33,737 bases of DNA from Daejeonella lutea (GTDB lineage Bacteria; Bacteroidota; Bacteroidia; Sphingobacteriales; Sphingobacteriaceae): assembly GCF_900168015.1 (NCBI RefSeq), contig NZ_FUYR01000001.1:1-33737 (forward strand). The letters are read 5' to 3'. The number at the start of each line of letters is the position of its first letter. Position 1 is the stretch's first letter. This document shows, one piece after another, positions 3,194 through 13,942 of the stretch. The notes beneath the pieces are model-generated. The model saw nothing but the letters and a program-made list of their open reading frames with translations. It made no database searches and was not told the origin of the DNA. Made by a program: the position numbers and the translations under genes.

Positions 3194-3267
3194 GCGCCCA
3201 TAGCTCAGTTGGTTAGAGTAGAAGACTCATAATCTTTTGGTCCCTGGTTCGAGCCCAGGTGGGCGCA
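3194..3267 (+). tRNA. tRNA-Met (anticodon CAT)
   Basis: A full cloverleaf is visible. The acceptor stem GCGCCCA (3194-3200) pairs with TGGGCGC (3260-3266), with A3267 as discriminator. The D-arm is 3203-3219. The anticodon stem is 3221-3225/3233-3237 around loop CTCATAA, with CAT at 3228-3230. The T-stem CCTGG/CCAGG encloses TTCGAGC. CCA is not encoded. It is probably elongator Met; a lysidine-modified tRNA-Ile2 with the same anticodon cannot be excluded. Its 3' end is the insertion site of the mobile element, so the 3' part from 3246 is probably element-derived but identical in sequence. Confidence 0.93.
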
Positions 3268-3272
3268 CGAAG
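3246..3272 (+). repeat. att repeat, tRNA-side copy (attL)
   Basis: This 27-bp sequence runs from GGTTCGAGCCC in the T-arm to 5 nt past the discriminator and is identical to 14171-14197. It completes the functional tRNA. Sequence beyond it differs completely from that beyond the distal copy. Confidence 0.92.
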
Positions 3273-3291
3273 TACTAGTTCATTCTAGTTC

Positions 3292-3327
3292 AAAACCCTG
3301 TAAAAAGTCTGATTTACAGGGTTTTTT
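3292..3327 (+). terminator. Rho-independent terminator supplied by the element, downstream of tRNA-Met
   Basis: Perfect 13-bp stem (3292-3304 with 3313-3325) around an 8-nt loop, ending in TTTTTT. It lies inside the element just past attL, so it now ends the tRNA transcript in place of the ancestral terminator at 14196-14223. Confidence 0.88.
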
Positions 3328-3409
3328 GCTTTCTTTTAGTCTATATCAATTCATATCAATCTACCGTTCTGGTTACCAATCCGACTACCTGTTTTTAGTT
3401 TTACCTTTG

Positions 3410-3516
3410 AGGTAACACAAAGTGCTGTAAGTGATTGAATATCGGTTATTTACGGCCTTAAAAGTTAACGAAAATGGCCTTGTTTTCAGGCTGTTTGTGT
3501 TACCTCTGTGTTACCT
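3410..3516 (+). repeat. Cluster of GTGTTACCT sites: candidate recombinase arm-binding sites
   Basis: GTGTTACCT occurs directly at 3497-3505 and 3508-3516, an 11-bp step that would put both on the same helix face, and inverted at 3410-3418. The cluster lies between attL and the integrase start. Arm-type sites next to attP are known for IntDOT and lambda-like recombinases; the assignment here is inferred from position and repetition. Confidence 0.5.
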
Positions 3517-3573
3517 GTAATTGATCCAAAAAACGGGATGTATTGTATGAATTTAAGCTAAAAAAGCAATTTT

Positions 3574-4805
3574 ATGAGAACATCACAGTCATTCGGAATC
3601 CATTTCACTATCAGAGCTGATAAAGTAAGAGATGGAAAAGCACCAGTTTATGCATGCGTTACGGTTAACAGGAAGCGCTGTTATATCGCATTGAAGCAGT
3701 TGGTAGAAGTTAAAAGCTGGGATAACGTCAAAGGAACGTTAAAAGGCAGCAGGGAAGAATTTAAAAGTATTAATCACTATTTGCATGAAGTTCGGATGGC
3801 CATCGGCACCTGCTACCAGCAACTAAGTTTAAAAGGCAGGATAGTAAATGCTGATGCCATCAAGGATGCATTTTTAGGAACGGCAGAAGAAGTACATACC
3901 TTAAGCAGCCTCTTTGAGTAACATAATGAAACGGCTACCAGCACTTTAAAATGGAGCACGCTTAAACACTACTATGTTACTCAGCGTTATTTGGTTAAGT
4001 TCATTCAAAAGCAATTCAAATCTGCCGATTTATATCTCGATGAACTGATTATAAATTCATTTATGATTTTGAGACCTTCCTTCGAAATCATAAGCCGGTT
4101 GATCACCAGAAGCCAATGAACAACAACGGTGTAATGAAGCATATTATTCGCGTTAAAAAGATGGTTCACCTGGCTATCCGGCTGGAATGGATCTCCAAGG
4201 ACCCGTTCGCCAATTATAAACTTAAAATATTTAAGGTAAACCGGGAGCATCTGTCGGAAAAGGAACTTGCTACCATGGAAAGCAAGGTCTTTGAAATTGA
4301 CCGGATTGATATGATTCGGGATTTGTTCGTGTTCTGCTGCTATACCGGACTAACTTATGTGGATGTTATCAATCTGAAACATGATAATATCGTAGAAGCT
4401 TCTGACGGAGAAATGTGGTTGCGTACCTGCAGACAGAAGACGGATATTCCGGTTAATACTCCGCTTCTTCCCAAAGCAGTAGAAATCTTAAAGAAGTATA
4501 AAGGGAACCCAAGAGCGGCAGTAACCAACACGGTTTTTCCGGTGATCTCCAATCAGAAGGTTAATGCGTACCTGAAAGAAATCGCTTCTATATGCGGGAT
4601 AACAAAGAATATCACCTTCCATTTGGCGAGACATACGTTTGCGACTACGGTTACGCTTTCTAATGGGGTACCTATTGAGACGGTGAGTAAGATGTTGGGG
4701 CACACCAAGATTGCAACGACTCAGATTTATGCTAAGGTGCTGGAGAAGAAGATTAGTGAGGATATGGCGGCGTTGAAATCTAAACTAGCGAATCTTTCAT
4801 GTTAG
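3574..4805 (+). pseudogene. Bacteroides-type tyrosine recombinase (integrase), broken by a stop and a frameshift
   Basis: Residues 1-115 (3574-3918) are an arm-binding/N-terminal domain of the Bacteroidetes integrase family, then an in-frame TAA interrupts at 3919. The same frame continues as recognisable core-binding sequence (STLKHYYVTQRYLVKFI) until about 4047. One base, probably a G, is missing there, and the reading shifts to the frame of the segment that runs to 4805. That segment holds the catalytic domain: RDLFVFCCYTGLTYVDV (box I region, with Thr where many relatives have Arg, as remembered for IntDOT-like enzymes), HLARHTFAT (H-x-x-R) and MLGHTKIATTQIYAKV (His and nucleophile Tyr). 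Full length would be about 410 residues, normal for the family. Active residues survive, but two lesions should abolish the protein unless they are sequencing errors. Confidence 0.85.
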
Positions 4806-6013: not shown

Positions 6014-6610
6014 TTAGGAGGCATTCTGTTTAATCGGAGATTCTAATAGCGGGGCTAATATCTTTTTTGTCTTTGCATTCCCGTATTTCGAAACATCGCG
6101 TTTCAGCTTCCTGGTGTCCATCGTACGAACTTTAAGCGCTACATTTTTTAAAACTTCTGCCGGATCTTCAGCAAGAGATTCAAGATTATTTAACAGGTCA
6201 ACTATCAAGAATTCTTTGGTTACTTTGCTCGGAAAGTGTGGCTTCATGCGGAAGGAAAATTTCCTGTTTCCTAGCTTGAATTCACCGTGCCGTTTATGAT
6301 TATATACGGTTCTTTCATTATACAACTGGGTAGTACCAACTCCTAAACTATTATAAGAGCTTGGCGAAGTAAGCAGGAACCTATCATCTTTAAGAAAGCT
6401 TCTTATCAAAACCTCTTCCTCCGGTGGAGTTTTACCAAAGGCACTTAATTTCGGGTAATAGTATAAGCCCTGAGAAAGTTTTTGAAGTGTATCTTCCTCA
6501 ACCAGAGCATCAAGAAGCCGATCAACTGATTTAGACCATTTGGCTAAATCATCCCGGCGATATACCTGGCCTCTTTTAAGATGCTTTTTTAATTCCTCGA
6601 GCCTGTTCAT
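6014..6610 (-). CDS. DUF6088 / AbiEi-like antitoxin-type protein, no toxin partner
   Basis: A 198-aa protein. Residues about 1-55 read as a winged-helix domain (LKRGQVYRRDDLAKW, SVDRLLDALVEEDTLQKLSQGLYYYPK), followed by the DUF6088 core with PSSYNSLGVGTTQLYNERTVY. The family is annotated as AbiEi-type antitoxins of type IV systems, where it normally precedes an AbiEii nucleotidyltransferase toxin that it represses or counteracts. No AbiEii gene is present: the 230 bp downstream are noncoding. Two 100-bp direct repeats flank this gene, which suggests rearrangement or loss. It may have been kept as a standalone regulator or be decaying. ATG at 6610. Confidence 0.8.
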   Translation of the reverse strand: MNRLEELKKHLKRGQVYRRDDLAKWSKSVDRLLDALVEEDTLQKLSQGLYYYPKLSAFGKTPPEEEVLIRSFLKDDRFLLTSPSSYNSLGVGTTQLYNERTVYNHKRHGEFKLGNRKFSFRMKPHFPSKVTKEFLIVDLLNNLESLAEDPAEVLKNVALKVRTMDTRKLKRDVSKYGNAKTKKILAPLLESPIKQNAS

Positions 6611-6946: not shown

Positions 6947-7234
6947 TCAGATTGCAAACCGAGCAAATGCAGGAATTTGATATCTCTCTGCCACAAGAAT
7001 ACAGACCTTGTTGCTTATCCTTTCCCTTGTGGACTTTAACACATTTACTATTTCATCCTTTGTGTAAACTTCCTCAAGGCTAATTATATCATTCAAAAAA
7101 GTAGCAGGGGTAGTTGCAACTAGGGCCCGTGGAATAATAATATCCATGTCCCTATTTAAATCCAGGGTATGGATATCTAAATCCCATACTAGGTGCTTTG
7201 GAAGAATATCAGATATGTTGTGTTGCTCCTTCAC
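6947..7234 (-). CDS. DUF6922 family protein
   Basis: A 95-aa protein with the family pattern ISDILPKHLVWDLDIHTLD at the start, IIPRAL in the middle and RERISNKVCILVAERYQIP at the end. Homologues in Bacteroidetes often neighbour AbiEii-type nucleotidyltransferase genes (from memory), and here the same strand carries the AbiEi-like DUF6088 gene 336 bp further on. This pair is probably what remains of an AbiE-like locus. It is full length for the family; the biochemical role is unknown. The start at 7234 puts M directly before the conserved block. Confidence 0.75.
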   Translation of the reverse strand: MKEQHNISDILPKHLVWDLDIHTLDLNRDMDIIIPRALVATTPATFLNDIISLEEVYTKDEIVNVLKSTRERISNKVCILVAERYQIPAFARFAI

Positions 7235-7332
7235 CTTACAAAGATACCTCTTAATACCTGGATAAAAGCTATGGCTGCTTCCCCAAAATTGGATTTAATA
7301 AACGATCAGACCATCTCTTTTTGAATGGTCAG

Positions 7333-7464
7333 CAAGATGTACATTTGCTACACAAATGAATCTTGCCTTCCGGGAAGAAGCCCTGATTCTCCGGCTTCAG
7401 CAAGATGTACGTTTGTATTACAAACTACTCTTGCCTATGACAAAAATCCTCCGAAGTCGGATTT
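7333..7464. ncRNA. Candidate structured RNA: tandem stem-loops next to the reverse transcriptase gene
   Basis: Four hairpins lie in series. 7333-7365 has CAAGA/TCTTG outside CATTTG/CAAATG. 7377-7398 is GAAGCC/GGCTTC. 7401-7433 repeats the first hairpin with the inner stem changed to GTTTGT/ACAAAC. 7442-7464 is AAAATCC/GGATTTT, which resembles a terminator in either direction (T5 on the minus strand). Both partners of the inner stem differ between the two 33-nt units while pairing is kept, which argues for selection on structure. It lies 310 bp past the stop of the RT on the RT's strand. Orientation and transcription are not established. Confidence 0.5.
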
Positions 7465-7644
7465 TCTAATGACATCTTAAACGGATTTAGGAGCATGAAA
7501 TGAAAATCAAAGGATGTCTCGTTTCTTAACAACCACTTTCTTTTTCTCTGGCAGGAGTTAAATTCGTTCCTAATACCACATCTGCCTTCCCCATTCTCGA
7601 GAAAAAATCCCATCTCACCGCATCATTCGGCAAAGTTACCGACA

Positions 7645-7725
7645 GGCGGATAAAAGTAAAGGCTATACAAGCGAAGCATTTTTATTTGTTTTTAACGGTG
7701 CTTCGGCCTTGACATGTCATCCGCC
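7645..7725. ncRNA. 81-nt nested hairpin just downstream of the RT stop codon
   Basis: Three nested perfect stems: GGCGGAT (7645-7651) with ATCCGCC (7719-7725), AAGGC (7659-7663) with GCCTT (7706-7710), and CGAAGCA (7672-7678) with TGCTTCG (7699-7705). They enclose a 20-nt AT-rich loop. No T-run follows on either strand, so it is not a simple intrinsic terminator. It begins 49 bp beyond the RT stop. It could be part of an RT-associated RNA or a palindromic repeat. Confidence 0.5.
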
Positions 7726-7773
7726 AGCGATTTTGGTGCCTAAGCGTTGGACATGGAAGGTATGTAATTGTGC

Positions 7774-9543
7774 TTAAAACTTAGGGCGCTCAAGAATACT
7801 GAAAAACGAATGAGGAAAGCCGGCTTCTAATAAATCTGGTAGATCCTCTTTTTCTTCTTCTTTTACGTTTGGAATAGCTCTTTTTTCAAAATAGAATTTT
7901 AATTTCGATAACGCTCGTTGCCGGGTAAAATCAAGATGCCTTAATTGATGTCGTGTATATTTATTATTTTCAATTAATTTAAATCCAGCACCCCAACACA
8001 TTGTTAAAGGAGTGTTTTTATAAGTACCGATATCTATATTACCAACAGCCATCGCTGCCAATCGGCTGCTAAAGCTTTTCCTGATAGAAAGTTCTTGATT
8101 AATTAATTCTTCATTAGTATGCTTATCTAAACGCTTGATTACTTTCAATAATTCCGAATTATGTTTCGTTGTTTGTTTCTCAATAGATTTCTTTCTGATT
8201 TTTAGATCACCGTTTTCATGAACCATATAACCTAAAAAGCTTACCCAAGGGGAATGGGGATGAAGGTCGGACTTTTTGATACTCCATAAATACACGTCCC
8301 TGGACTTAATATTTTTACCCCAAAACATCCTAGAGTATTTAGGCTTCAACTCAGGTGGGGCATGTGGAATTAGATTTAAATTTGATAAATTTTGAAAGTA
8401 ATCATTGAAAAGTGCTTTGCATTCTTTTGCAGATTTGTGCACAATAACCATATCGTCGCAATACCGTAGATAAATGTAATCGTTATTCCAACTTGCTAAA
8501 TTTGTAACCACATCGTCTAAGTCGTGCATTAACAAGTTTACCATTAAGCCTGAAAGTGCACCACCTTGTGGGATACCAATTCTTTTTAAAGCTAAATCCC
8601 CAGCGTTAAATCTTTCTATCAACTCGACAGTCCATTCAAATTGTCCATTGAAATCGTTGGCCGCATGCCAAAAATGGATATTAGTATTTAGCGGAAATAC
8701 GGAATCGCTAAAAGAATAGCAATCAAGATATCCTTTAAAAACCATTTCTGCTGATTGGTGAATATTAACACCTTGTTTTGATAATGCTTCTTTAGCATTG
8801 TTGTATTTTTGAACTACAACCTCATGATCAACGCAATCAAAAAATTTCTTTATATCGCATTCCGCTACATATAAAGGCGAATCGAGATGTTTAATTCTAA
8901 ATTTTTTAAGAAGCTCGACGGCATCATGATAAGTTGGCCCTTTCATATATGAGTTTTTGGAACGGAACGCAAACGAGCAATCCAAAAAAACATTATCGAA
9001 CAACTGAGTTAAGTACTTATTAGTTAAGCTCAAAACGATTTTGTCCTCTACAAAAAATTTTGCAATCGGTCGCCGTTCTTTTTCTTCTTTTTTATACGGG
9101 GGTTTTCTTGCAGGAAATACGGTAGGCTTAACTAACGAAAAATGTTCACTTTGAAAGACCTTGATTTTGAGATTGAAAATGAATTTTCTTAAATTTTGAT
9201 ACCAAATCGGAGTTTCTAAGAAATTATTTTGGCCTGTAATAAACAGTCTATGTATATGATATACCCGATTACGTATTGACTGTTGATTTAACTCCATTGT
9301 CGAATCAAAAGTTTTTCTGTTAATATGCTTTTTGGGTCTTGACCATTCTTTTCTTGAAGGAAGAAGATCACTAATAATTTTGATCTCTAATGCTCTGGCT
9401 TTATCCTCTATAGAAAAAGGTTTACTCTTACAGTATTTATCTAAATAAGAATTTTTATGAATATAGAATGCGATTTTAGATCTGGAAATTATAATTTGTT
9501 CTAATACGTTGTAAAAATCGAAGAAGCTTTCAAAATCTTTCAT
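7774..9543 (-). CDS. Reverse transcriptase of defence-associated (UG/DRT-like) type
   Basis: A 589-aa protein with a complete RT palm. RRPIAKFFVEDKIV (about 157-170) precedes the fingers. Motif A is AECDIKKFFD (Asp230, Asp236), motif B is GIPQGGALSG (323-332), motif C is YCDD (361-364, catalytic Asp363/364), and FLGY (436-439) follows. Residues 1-140 and 450-589 match nothing I recognise; there is no maturase X, HNH, integrase or protease domain, so it is not a group II intron or retroelement protein. Size and setting (defence island, isolated gene, structured noncoding DNA alongside) fit the 'unknown group' RTs, several of which are antiphage systems acting with a noncoding RNA; the subgroup cannot be assigned by eye. 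It is transcribed away from the primase gene, sharing a 193-bp intergenic region. Base composition is AT-rich. Confidence 0.85.
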   Translation of the reverse strand: MKDFESFFDFYNVLEQIIISRSKIAFYIHKNSYLDKYCKSKPFSIEDKARALEIKIISDLLPSRKEWSRPKKHINRKTFDSTMELNQQSIRNRVYHIHRLFITGQNNFLETPIWYQNLRKFIFNLKIKVFQSEHFSLVKPTVFPARKPPYKKEEKERRPIAKFFVEDKIVLSLTNKYLTQLFDNVFLDCSFAFRSKNSYMKGPTYHDAVELLKKFRIKHLDSPLYVAECDIKKFFDCVDHEVVVQKYNNAKEALSKQGVNIHQSAEMVFKGYLDCYSFSDSVFPLNTNIHFWHAANDFNGQFEWTVELIERFNAGDLALKRIGIPQGGALSGLMVNLLMHDLDDVVTNLASWNNDYIYLRYCDDMVIVHKSAKECKALFNDYFQNLSNLNLIPHAPPELKPKYSRMFWGKNIKSRDVYLWSIKKSDLHPHSPWVSFLGYMVHENGDLKIRKKSIEKQTTKHNSELLKVIKRLDKHTNEELINQELSIRKSFSSRLAAMAVGNIDIGTYKNTPLTMCWGAGFKLIENNKYTRHQLRHLDFTRQRALSKLKFYFEKRAIPNVKEEEKEDLPDLLEAGFPHSFFSILERPKF

Positions 9544-9592
9544 ATTAAAAAGAGGGCAGCGGCTAAAAGGAAATACTTCTATTGTTGTGGTT

Positions 9593-9669
9593 GGTTTAAA
9601 ACCGTGATTCTCATGTTAAGGTTTAAGCCTTACGCATATTGGTCCAATTATTATTATTCTCAGACTGAG
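9593..9669. promoter_or_regulatory. Three palindromes in the divergent RT/primase intergenic region
   Basis: GGTTTTAAACC-type inverted repeat at 9593-9603, a 16-bp near-perfect palindrome TAAGGTTTAAGCCTTA at 9617-9632, and CTCAGACTGAG at 9659-9669. They could be operators controlling both genes or stems of an RNA upstream of the RT. No regulator gene adjoins them. Confidence 0.4.
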
Positions 9670-9736
9670 TTTTAATTAACTTCTACAGTTTCGCTACCCT
9701 CGTGATAAATGTATTATTTTTATTTTTGAAAATGTT

Positions 9737-10714
9737 ATGATTAAAGATTTTAAAGTAGGATACTATCCTAAGCCTTTTAAGCACGAGTTTAAGACAATTG
9801 ATCTGGAAGCAATGCTTAAAAGCTTTAGGGGTGATTTTTTTAAGCCTCAAATTGAAAAGGCTCGACAACTTTATTTGGATCAGGAATTTGAAAAATATAC
9901 GCTTTTAAAAAATACGTTGCCTGCCGTGACGTTTTCAGGCACTTTCTCTCCTACACGAACAGCCGGAAATCTAATAACTTATAGTTCTTTAATTATTTTG
10001 GATGTAGACAAAGCAGGAGAAGATTTAAACAGTATTAAAGAATTACTTTCCAAAGACCAATATATTTTGGCAGTATGGCTCTCACCTTCCGGGGACGGTT
10101 TAAAGTCTTTGATTGTAAGCGAAAACGCCGAGGATCAACACAAGAAAGCTTATAGGGCAGCTACCATCTATTATAAAGAAAATTATAACATTACTATTGA
10201 TACTTCCGGTTCTGACGTTTCCAGATTGTGTTTCATTTCTTATGATCCGAATATAAAAGTAAATGTCGATTACAAAACGTTTAATCAGTTGCATTTAGTG
10301 GATGAAAAGGTTGAAATCCTCAACAAGGTAAAAAAAGTGTTTTCGAGATATCCTTTGCTATTAAAAGATAGCTTGCCTAATGATGAATTATCTAAACTTA
10401 CCTATAAAAAGATGTACCATTTTTTAAGTAAGCGAGGGCTCTCAATCACTGAGTCTTATGAAAATTGGGTTCGTGTGGCATTCGCCTTGAGTAATACCTT
10501 CAACCTTCGTTTGGGTAGCCAATATTTTTTAGAATTGTGCAGGCTTGATGGCGTAAATCATGATGAGTATCAAAGCGAAAAGCTTATTCATTCTTGTTAT
10601 CAAAAAGGAACTTCTCAAAGTTCATTTGCAACTTTACTTTACTTGGCAAAAGAAAAGGGCTTTGATATTCATTTTAATAAGAAAATGAATGTAAAAAAAA
10701 AAGCAAAAAAATAA
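9737..10714 (+). CDS. BT4734-type primase-polymerase (VirE_N-like) with PriCT-like C-terminus
   Basis: A 325-aa protein. Residues about 55-170 carry the archaeo-eukaryotic primase pattern of the BT4734/VirE-N family: LPAVTFSGTF, LIILDVDK (Asp89 and Asp91, metal ligands), SPSGDGLKSL (116-125) and the ITIDTSGSDVSRLCFISYDP block (Asp155, Asp160). Residues about 225-310 (YHFLSKRGLS, NWVRVAFALS, ATLLYLAKEKGF) look like a PriCT-2 helical domain. Relatives in mobile elements usually continue into a DUF3987-like helicase; none is present here. Expected activity is nucleic-acid priming or gap filling. Its head-to-head pairing with the RT suggests a shared pathway. A 7-bp hairpin (10710-10728) overlaps the stop. 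A TATTTTTG box at 9721-9728 lies only 8 nt before the ATG. Confidence 0.8.
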   Translation: MIKDFKVGYYPKPFKHEFKTIDLEAMLKSFRGDFFKPQIEKARQLYLDQEFEKYTLLKNTLPAVTFSGTFSPTRTAGNLITYSSLIILDVDKAGEDLNSIKELLSKDQYILAVWLSPSGDGLKSLIVSENAEDQHKKAYRAATIYYKENYNITIDTSGSDVSRLCFISYDPNIKVNVDYKTFNQLHLVDEKVEILNKVKKVFSRYPLLLKDSLPNDELSKLTYKKMYHFLSKRGLSITESYENWVRVAFALSNTFNLRLGSQYFLELCRLDGVNHDEYQSEKLIHSCYQKGTSQSSFATLLYLAKEKGFDIHFNKKMNVKKKAKK

Positions 10715-11974: not shown

Positions 11975-13000
11975 ATGCCAACTTTAGACTACACACGTAG
12001 ATTATCAAGTCTCCAAAACAGGAGATTTGACAAGGAACTGAACGAATCAACCTTAACCAAGTCCTTTAGCGCGTCAAATTTGCCAGAGGATATCAAATAT
12101 CTAATTGAATCTATGCAACCTATTGGCGACAAATATAACGCCAAGACAATTACTGCAGCCAACAATGTTCAAAAGCACTTAGAACGTGATTTTAATTTGC
12201 ATTTTAATAGGGCGTACAGAACCCAAGGTTCTGTCATGACTGGTACCAATATAGAGGTTCATAGCGATTTTGATCTTTTGACGGTAATTGATCGTTATTT
12301 TTATCCGCAATCACAACCGGTAAACCCGTATACCGCGTCAGATCCGAATGTTGATATATGCGAAATGCGTAAACAGGCCACTGAAATTATGAAGGCGGAA
12401 TACAAAATTGTAGACGATACGGGCGATAAGTGTATTTCGATTGAAAATCAAAATTTAAATCGAAAAGTGGACATCGTATTTTGCTATTGGTATCACTCTG
12501 AAAAGTTCAACGAAACGAACAACGACCATTATAAAGGTGTATATCTATATGATTTTAAAAAACAAATCAAACACCGGGATTTTCCATTTGCGACAATAAA
12601 CAATGTCAATCATAAAGGCGACAATACGCATGACGGATTTAGGAGAGGTGTCCGTTTGTTAAAGACGCTAAGGGCGGACTGCGAAGTGGAATTGAAAATG
12701 CTAAAAAGCTTCCAATTGACCTCAATAGCTTACTCTATGGAAAATTCTTCGTTAATGTATAGTACCGGAAGTGAATTACAAATAGCAAAGAATTTATCGG
12801 CTGAGATGAAATTGCTTATCGATGATCCAATTAAGCGAAAGGCCGTCCTAAGCCCTAACGGAATAGAACGACCATTAGCAAAGGATGAAGTTGTCGCTGA
12901 TATGATTCGATTAAAGCAAGATTTGGATGTTCTAATTGAAGATGCTTCCAAAGATATCGCCAATAGCTATTTTGTTCAACGATCAATTTTAGCTTATTAA
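11975..13000 (+). CDS. CD-NTase (cGAS/DncV-like nucleotidyltransferase) of a CBASS system
   Basis: A 341-aa cytosolic enzyme predicted to make a cyclic dinucleotide on phage infection. The nucleotidyltransferase signature is complete: QGSVMTGT (Gly85-Ser86) followed by SDFDLL (Asp98, Asp100), with the third carboxylate at NRKVDIVF (Asp166). The C-terminal half is helical, as in the OAS-like fold. It is followed after 3 nt by a TIR-STING gene. Bacterial STING loci described so far usually pair with CdnE-type enzymes making c-di-GMP, so that product is the best guess, but the clade cannot be assigned by eye. No Cap2/Cap3 ancillary genes adjoin, consistent with a minimal (type I) system. Confidence 0.88.
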   Translation: MPTLDYTRRLSSLQNRRFDKELNESTLTKSFSASNLPEDIKYLIESMQPIGDKYNAKTITAANNVQKHLERDFNLHFNRAYRTQGSVMTGTNIEVHSDFDLLTVIDRYFYPQSQPVNPYTASDPNVDICEMRKQATEIMKAEYKIVDDTGDKCISIENQNLNRKVDIVFCYWYHSEKFNETNNDHYKGVYLYDFKKQIKHRDFPFATINNVNHKGDNTHDGFRRGVRLLKTLRADCEVELKMLKSFQLTSIAYSMENSSLMYSTGSELQIAKNLSAEMKLLIDDPIKRKAVLSPNGIERPLAKDEVVADMIRLKQDLDVLIEDASKDIANSYFVQRSILAY

Positions 13001-13003
13001 GTC

Positions 13004-13942
13004 ATGACAGATTTAAAACCTAATATCTTCATTGGCTCGTCAGGTACGGGCTATGAATACGCAACAAAAGTAAAAGACTGTTTGAATGGAATTGCAAATT
13101 GTATTTTATGGCAAGAACCGGGTGTATGGGAGCCAAATAGGAGTACGTTTGATAATTTACTGAGAATGGTAAGTTTTTTTGATTTCGGTATTTTTGTAGC
13201 AACGGCCGATGACTTGACGTTGACTAAAGATGATAAAATAGTTATCGAACCCAGGGACAATGTTATTTTGGAAATGGCGTTGTTTTTAGGTGCTTTAGGA
13301 AAGCACAAGTCTTTTTTATTAGTGGAAGAAGGTGTAAAGCTGCCGAGTGATTTTAAAGGTATTTATATGCCGCGTTTTAAAAGAGCAGATAATAATGCTA
13401 TTGAGGCAGCCTGTAAGGAATTTTCTGCTACAATTGAAGAACATTACAAGCTTGGGCATTTAAGTTTATATCCAACAACCGCTTTGGCCATCGGATATTA
13501 TAAAAATTTCATTGCTGGGTTGGTAGATAGTGTCCAAAACACTAAAGTGTTAAAGATTAATAATTTGAAGTTTACCAAATTTAAGCTTAAAGTTATCATG
13601 CCGAAGGATTTAAAAGGTCTAATCAGAGAAAAGGCCGATCAGTTTTACAGGCGGCATGGATTTATCGAAAACACTATGGAAACGAAATTCAGAAAACATC
13701 CCGCTTGGTTTCATATCGACGAACACCATGCACCGCAAGCGATTATGTATGATATGCCTAGTACCTTAACTGGTGTTGACGATGCCATTGAAATGATTTT
13801 GCAAAAAGGATTTCAAGGCAGAACCCAACTTCAGGAGGTTATCGAGCAAAGAGAGTTAAATAATTTTAGACGCGTTTTGCAGATCCAAATAGATAGAAGT
13901 CCCTTTGCACAAGAAATTGTTGAAATTGTCGATGAGTTTTAA
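13004..13942 (+). CDS. cap12: TIR-STING effector (Cap12), cyclic-dinucleotide-activated NADase
   Basis: A 312-aa two-domain protein. Residues 1-150 are a TIR-like domain: NIFIGSSGTGYEYA at the start and EPRDNVILEMALFLGALG, in which Glu90 is the expected catalytic glutamate. Residues about 152-312 match the bacterial STING fold: LYPTTALAIGYYKNF corresponds to GLAWSYYIGYL of human STING, KFKLKVIMPKDL to its LYILLPLDC strand, and YDMPSTLTGVDDAIEMIL lies in the C-terminal ligand-lid region. Known homologues bind c-di-GMP, form filaments and deplete NAD+, causing abortive infection. The length is close to the roughly 320 aa of characterised TIR-STINGs. It is co-transcribed with the CD-NTase (3-nt gap). 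It has no membrane segments, unlike animal STING. Confidence 0.88.
   Translation: MTDLKPNIFIGSSGTGYEYATKVKDCLNGIANCILWQEPGVWEPNRSTFDNLLRMVSFFDFGIFVATADDLTLTKDDKIVIEPRDNVILEMALFLGALGKHKSFLLVEEGVKLPSDFKGIYMPRFKRADNNAIEAACKEFSATIEEHYKLGHLSLYPTTALAIGYYKNFIAGLVDSVQNTKVLKINNLKFTKFKLKVIMPKDLKGLIREKADQFYRRHGFIENTMETKFRKHPAWFHIDEHHAPQAIMYDMPSTLTGVDDAIEMILQKGFQGRTQLQEVIEQRELNNFRRVLQIQIDRSPFAQEIVEIVDEF

Follow-up and report, generated by a model that had tools for sequence, protein, structure and literature searches.

The window, that is, the whole stretch of 33,737 nucleotides of Daejeonella lutea that was analysed, carries a gene for a reverse transcriptase (RT) of the UG39 group and, divergent from it, a gene for a VirE/PriCT-2 protein. 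The genes and the gap between them are as follows.

3194-4805, plus strand: tRNA-Met, then a tyrosine integrase in two ORFs (arm-binding domain, catalytic domain)
7774-9543, minus strand: UG39 reverse transcriptase, 589 aa (RT_UG39 profile, RVT_1, AF2 model)
9544-9736: 5' gap of 193 bp between the RT and VirE genes
9737-10714, plus strand: VirE/PriCT-2 partner, primase-polymerase-like (AEP), 325 aa (RTasVirE-PriCT2, E 7.5e-100)
11975-13942, plus strand: CD-NTase and TIR-STING pair, CBASS type (prok_STING E 1e-40, TIR E 3e-25)

A preliminary description of this DNA had placed the RT within a defence island, and both an AbiEi-like gene (6014-6610) and the CD-NTase and TIR-STING pair bear this out; a DUF6922 gene (6947-7234) is a further neighbour. 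This placement among defence-type genes suggests, as far as gene context can indicate, that the locus may serve in phage defence. The tRNA-Met and integrase site is possibly the end of the island, and the tyrosine integrase, split over two ORFs, looks broken.

The RT itself had been recognized as a 589-aa protein with YCDD, PQGG and DIKKFFD motifs, and the ORF at 7774-9543 on the minus strand indeed matches RVT_1 (E 1.7e-15) and contains ECDIKKFFD, PQGG and YCDD; residues D230, D363 and D364 are invariant among 61 aligned rows. PADLOC assigns the ORF to RT_UG39 with an E value of 1.6e-164, residues 4-585 being aligned to positions 2-538 of the 541 in the profile. Since this profile covers almost the full length of the RT, its N-terminal and C-terminal parts are not orphan sequence, contrary to the earlier statement that the 140 residues at either end match nothing. 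The named DRT profiles that rank next among the matches listed are Drt2 (6e-24), UG17 (5e-20) and Drt9 (5e-19). An AF2 model of the RT (pLDDT 88.5) was closest in Foldseek to the DRT9 structures 9vma, 9vku and 9nlv (TM about 0.5), the top PDB match being 9vma (E 7.3e-15, TM 0.51), followed by group II-like, group II intron and DRT2 RTs. Among the DRT types, the RT is thus nearest to Class 2 (DRT2, DRT9, UG17) by profile rank and best fold, a placement that is based on these two measures, while a PDB sequence search favours group II intron RTs (best 1.4e-26) over DRT9 (3.4e-20) and DRT2 (1.2e-18).

The RT had also been called stand-alone, which the divergent RTasVirE-PriCT2 gene contradicts. 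The protein encoded by this gene contains an N-terminal BT4734-like_N domain (E 1.8e-27) and scores 18.7 bits for PriCT_2, under the cutoff of 22; its residues D89, D91, D160 and R163 are invariant among 43 rows, the first two being candidates for the catalytic DxD of an AEP fold. With its AF2 model (pLDDT 90), the top PDB match in Foldseek was the S-2L PrimPol AEP 6zp9, at a probability of 0.99 but an E value of 0.016, and a sequence search of the PDB returned no match at E<=0.1. The partner model resembles a PrimPol domain weakly.

UG39 is rare: of 395 genomes sampled from the class, 4 have it, including that of the window, and the RT occurred in 2 of the 59 other genomes of a set of relatives (E<1e-70). 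A scan of GTDB species genomes, from which the best 80 of 85 matches were taken, yielded 79 loci, and PADLOC called UG39 in all 20 homologues scanned with it (L011 and 19 of these 79). Among viral contigs, the RT protein as a single query found no relative, and an alignment query found 28 loci whose RT-domain matches were short (E 2e-6 to 1e-4); no match was obtained in the phages searched, and one record in the plasmids. We built a tree from 68 RTs after removing near-copies and frames that were short or broken. A VirE gene adjoins 45 of the 68, window included, and it is co-directional with the RT in 26, divergent in 19 and absent in 23; these labels cluster on the tree, three changes being needed.

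The preliminary description proposed that the RT works with a structured RNA and sought this RNA 3' of the gene. The first part of the proposal is supported by our analysis, but the RNA candidate lies 5' of the RT. The 3' tract is, as had been stated, noncoding and structured: 7235-7773 is without an ORF of at least 80 aa, and 7300-7773, which holds two 40-nt repeats 68 nt apart, folds on the RT strand better than all of its 100 shuffles (z -2.96). Folding energy alone does not separate the two regions, since z is -2.92 for the RNA of about 150 nt at 9552-9701. Related RT loci lack the tract, 3' homology being confined to L014 (226 nt, 82%) and to L013, where the tract breaks off some 71 nt beyond the RT stop codon although the RT gene is 99% identical to that of L014. 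More generally, among 12 hand-picked locus pairs the first 200 nt 3' of the RT fell short of the RT gene in identity in all but one, the window and L014 (82.0 vs 81.8%, or 0.2 points), and the median distance from the RT stop codon to the next ORF of at least 100 aa is 173 nt (63 loci). The preliminary description had itself named homologous RT loci without a conserved 3' tract as evidence against its proposal, and such loci were found; it had also set the proposal against a placement of the RT inside a well-described DRT type, and the RT falls in a named DRT group, UG39. Two elements of the tract occur elsewhere.

7329-7543, minus strand: hairpin repeats lying 5' of the DUF6922 gene (6947-7234), outside the RT system (83% match in L121)
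7548-7756, minus strand: dispersed intergenic element with copies away from the RT, not part of the RT system

The former matches a genome of the same genus (G003, locus L121), where four tandem copies lie 5' of DUF6922 and an AbiEii-like ORF and where no match to the RT was found. Within the latter, 7602-7756 recurs at 84% on contig C52 of genome G033, where a relaxase gene lies about 0.8 kb away, and a second site in the L014 genome matches 7548-7756 at 86%; the window's own genome contains no second copy of the tract at E<=0.01. Because its halves match unrelated sites, the tract looks like a junction of sequences belonging to two unrelated neighbours. We rejected it as the RNA partner on the occurrence of its halves away from UG39 and on the unconserved 3' flank.

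Both elements have features of their own. The hairpin repeats are tandem units of about 67 nt, with two copies in the window (7329-7436) and four in L121 (1619-1856), and could be a repeat RNA tied to the toxin-antitoxin-like locus that they precede. The dispersed element is a structured sequence of about 150-200 nt (L122, L132), seen once near a relaxase gene and once between genes for Roc/LRR and HEPN proteins.

The span described earlier, 7333-9543, omits the 5' gap, which is the better RNA candidate and which had been named merely as a region for testing. With Mucilaginibacter loci this gap shares about 96% identity, against 81-82% for the RT and VirE genes of the same loci. By BLAST, it matches L013 and L014 at 96.8% over 190 nt; in a global alignment with L014, 187 of 195 positions are identical (95.9%) against 81.8% for the RT gene (p 1e-8). 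Among 12 non-overlapping locus pairs picked by hand, the gap was more conserved than the RT gene in 11 (two-sided sign test, p 0.006), singly at p<0.05 in eight, and the pair L055/L056 goes the opposite way. In the clade of the window, conservation extends across the whole 193 bp, loops included. The parts of the gap are listed below.

9552-9701, minus strand: candidate RT-associated ncRNA, about 150 nt, in RT sense, with putative ends set by the closing stem
9692-9701, minus strand: 5' arm of the closing stem, GAGGGUAGCG
9552-9561, minus strand: 3' arm of the closing stem, CGCUGCCCUC
9642-9665, minus strand: possible internal hairpin GUCUGA/UUGGAC (three sequences only, weak)
9617-9632, minus strand: possible internal hairpin UAAGG/CCUUA (similar hairpin in L013 and L015, by eye, weak)
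9562-9592, minus strand: loop region, candidate template, flanked by the closing stem and the last stable hairpin
9706-9713, minus strand: TACATTTA, a near-match to the Bacteroidota -7 box, just before the RNA

The complementary ends of the gap in the window thus read GAGGGUAGCG and CGCUGCCCUC, followed by UUUUUAAU and the RT AUG; past the 3' arm come UUUUU (9547-9551), AAU and the start codon. In the hairpin at 9642-9665, both differences between the window and L013 keep a standard pair, a weak indication drawn from three sequences. A weak hairpin of six pairs is predicted within the loop at 9562-9592, which is a candidate template region by analogy with DRT10 (PMC12632851). Rfam gave one match over 9500-9760, below threshold, and only a tRNA over the whole window at gathering thresholds. 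As to the promoter, the exact -7 box, whose consensus we take to be TANNTTTG, is present in 12 of 21 divergent loci, where 1.08 would be expected by shuffling; the box of the window is one base off.

A closing stem was searched for in the 270 nt 5' of each RT, near-copies included, with 20 shuffles per locus. In the 3' control, a stem surpassed every shuffle in 8 of 77 loci and was equalled or exceeded by no more than a single shuffle in 15; on the 5' side this held for 38 and 54 of 79 loci. Where VirE is present these counts are 32 and 44 of 54 loci; where it is absent they are 6 and 10 of 25, leaving 15 VirE-less loci in which the stem does not stand out. Loci in which it does not stand out include L035, L059, L079, L082 and L084 without VirE, and L064 and L074 with it. 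The window's own stem was equalled by one of its 20 shuffles. As the stem is found with divergent VirE, with co-directional VirE and in part of the VirE-less loci, it is not simply the promoter of VirE; in many co-directional loci the end of the VirE gene adjoins or contains the 5' arm of the stem.

Covariation was counted on MAFFT alignments built without structure, of which A2, A3 and A4 were cut at the ends set by the stem search. From 21 non-redundant divergent loci, 12 entered A2, seven entered A3 and A9 together with the VirE-less L085, and L063 and L074 entered neither; of the 26 co-directional loci, A4 includes 21, with L038, L041, L055, L061 and L064 left out. The percentages of paired cells lean upward because the stem arms had been found by a search for complementarity, and for the same reason it is the changes on both sides of a pair and the slid controls that carry weight. 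In A2, 92.5% of cells are paired against at most 51% when slid, and in 15 of 31 pairs both sides changed, against a shuffled mean of 6.8. For A4 the values are 79.2% against up to 64%, with 17 of 19 pairs changed on both sides (shuffled mean 10.7). A3, which contains the window, has 80.2% of cells paired and five pairs changed on both sides (3.4 in shuffles, 22 of 500 as high), with its window rows shifted by two columns at the closing stem. After the ends had been re-trimmed by hand (A9), all 80 of 80 cells are paired (100%; 33-68% when slid) and 5 of 10 pairs changed on both sides (2.8 in shuffles, 8 of 500 as high); the count of further pair types did not exceed that in shuffles (373 of 500 as high). 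A8, an untrimmed alignment of eight VirE-less loci chosen for carrying a TTCGA-type repeat, gave a consensus fold of only -4.0 kcal/mol with a covariation term of -0.08 and no closing stem. Judged from these alignments, the closing stem is kept by compensatory changes across UG39 loci with VirE, the support being weaker without VirE. The candidate 5' RNA is clearest in Bacteroidota, and a small number of Spirochaetota, Pseudomonadota and Cyanobacteriota loci show it too.

The motif TCAGTAT is present in 18 of 47 VirE loci (shuffled mean 0.71, maximum 4), and CAGTAT lies 15-48 nt 5' of the 3' arm of the stem in nearly all loci having it, L015 being an exception; the window has only AGUAUUU (9571-9577, minus strand), a partial match to the family motif UCAGUAU. 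An A-B-A' repeat, counted in loci with a stem only, was not enriched in 44 VirE loci (mean repeat 3.95 vs 4.02 shuffled) or in 16 VirE-less loci (3.62 vs 3.9). A looser tandem-repeat scan picked out 11 of 80 loci at p<0.05, nine of them VirE-less, some of the repeats being simple repeats or stem sequence, and the best tandem repeat of the window reached p 0.41. Given that the general test was negative, we do not claim an A-B-A' template for the window. Eight VirE-less loci, picked for their repeat, share a TTCGA-type repeat of period 5 within the RNA's 3' part (singly p 0.003-0.15); seven of them form one supported clade, and the eighth, L081, is not in the tree. This TTCGATTCGA-type repeat, which looks like a telomerase-type template for 5-nt repeats, lies 5' of the RT in L011, L026, L030, L035, L047, L048, L049 and L081, and the branch comprises Bacteroidota and Pseudomonadota records. 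Separately, a cyanobacterial UG39 locus from Dolichospermum (L053) has a TACCCTACCCTACC repeat 5' of the RT at the inner end of the closing stem; it may be structural, since it overlaps the stem.

We consider it probable that the locus is a UG39 defence-type cassette made of the RT, a 5' ncRNA of about 150 nt in RT sense and the primase-polymerase-like VirE/PriCT-2 protein, working by a mechanism like that of Class 2 DRT systems. The main competing explanation, to which we give roughly one chance in five, is that the conserved 5' element acts purely in cis as a regulator of RT and VirE (a leader with structure, an attenuator or a bidirectional promoter region) and neither binds the RT nor serves as its template. 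Its position at the RT start codon, its stem followed in many loci by a U-run as in an attenuator, and the promoter box that directly precedes it in 12 of 21 divergent loci would all fit such a role. However, a regulator accounts less readily for a clade in which the loops are conserved along with the rest of the 193 bp, or for the presence of the element in co-directional loci with its 5' arm at or inside the VirE end; moreover, the solved RTs nearest by fold use such RNAs, according to excerpts of PMC12489045.

Retron RNAs are likewise located 5' of the RT and closed by inverted repeats, and the closing stem could accordingly be read as the a1/a2 repeat of an msr-msd RNA from which the RT makes msDNA. 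We regard this as very improbable: the retron profiles score far below UG39, RT_Ec107-like (E 1e-8) being the only retron among the matches listed; the NAxxH and VTG motifs of retron RTs were not seen in this RT by eye; the predicted fold contains no long msd-like hairpin; and Foldseek puts DRT9 first. Hardly any credence is left for the 3' tract at 7300-7773 as the RNA partner, for although it folds better than its shuffles and L014 shares 226 nt of it downstream of its RT, parts of both its halves are found away from UG39, L013 loses it, the 3' flank is unconserved in other UG39 locus pairs, and the typical space before the next ORF is short.

Under the preferred reading of an RT with a 5' ncRNA and a primase-like partner, the RNA would be transcribed, would form a long closing stem enclosing small hairpins and would be expected to bind the RT, which might copy a short loop of its own RNA into DNA, probably repeatedly, as in the Class 2 DRT mechanism. 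By analogy with those systems, this loop would be the template and the copied DNA the product. The DNA could trigger or carry out defence, and the primase-like partner might prime, copy or act on it. A more far-reaching version, which we put forward tentatively and hold to be doubtful, is that UG39 is an undescribed ncRNA-guided DNA writer in which RT and primase-polymerase act jointly: with a short loop of the 5' RNA as its template, the RT would make repeat cDNA in the manner of telomerase, and in loci with VirE the primase would make or prime a second strand to give double-stranded repeat DNA as the defence signal, while one VirE-less branch would plausibly make 5-nt repeats from the conserved TTCGATTCGA-type loop.

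Known systems share some of these features and differ in others. DRT9 (UG28), the closest solved fold, consists in the excerpted account of PMC12489045 of an RT and a 188-nt ncRNA of several stem-loops, sought in the 300 bp upstream; UG39 shares an RT with an ncRNA of several stem-loops, but the Drt9 profile reaches only 5e-19 against 1.6e-164 for UG39, and UG39 often has the VirE partner. DRT9 is further described, in excerpts of the DRT10 study, as having a conserved poly-U template (PMC12632851), whereas the RNA of the window has no long poly-U, the longest U-run inside the closing stem being 4. The same excerpts present DRT10 (UG17) as an RT with a SLATT protein and a 137-nt ncRNA that has a large central stem, small stem-loops and a template downstream of a stem-loop (PMC12632851). 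A compact RNA of this build in a three-part system recalls UG39, and the TTCGA-type repeat of VirE-less UG39 loci recalls the A-B-A' template described there; in contrast, the UG39 partner is a primase-like VirE/PriCT-2 protein and not SLATT, the ncRNA adjoins the RT where that of DRT10 lies upstream of the partner gene, and the A-B-A' pattern is not enriched. DRT2 (UG2), with a 280-nt ncRNA upstream of the RT (PMC12489045, excerpts), resembles UG39 in the position of its RNA and gives the best named DRT profile after UG39 (Drt2, E 6e-24), but the RNA of the window is about half as long and gave no evidence for a hidden gene. As for DRT3 (UG3 and UG8), a system of two RTs and an ncRNA, complementary strands are made there by two polymerases, according to excerpts of PMC13174585. 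The primase partner of UG39 could take the role of the second polymerase, which is an RT in DRT3 and AEP-like in UG39, and the ncRNA of DRT3 is downstream.

The RT group and its partner were already catalogued by 2023 (PADLOC-DB 2.0.0): RT_UG39 and RTasVirE-PriCT2 denote the same RT family and the same partner, in a library that consists of protein profiles only. The paper of Mestre et al. 2022 is reportedly the source of the PADLOC RT_UG39 group. In the literature searched, whose scope did not extend to this founding paper, we found no conserved ncRNA for UG39 and no paper naming UG39 in an RT context. What may be new is the conserved 5' RNA, which suggests a Class 2-like RT-ncRNA system (like DRT2, DRT9 or DRT10) with a primase-like partner.

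According to excerpts of a 2025 study, ncRNAs were acquired by no more than a small set of UG/Abi RTs, DRT2, DRT3 and DRT9 among them, most being without one (PMC12489045), and DRT10 later joined the ncRNA-bearing RTs, as excerpts of PMC12632851 have it. If our reading is true, the conserved 5' RNA would make UG39 a further ncRNA-bearing group, usually paired with a primase-like protein, and it would allow the proposal that repeat cDNA synthesis unifies these RTs to be tested directly.
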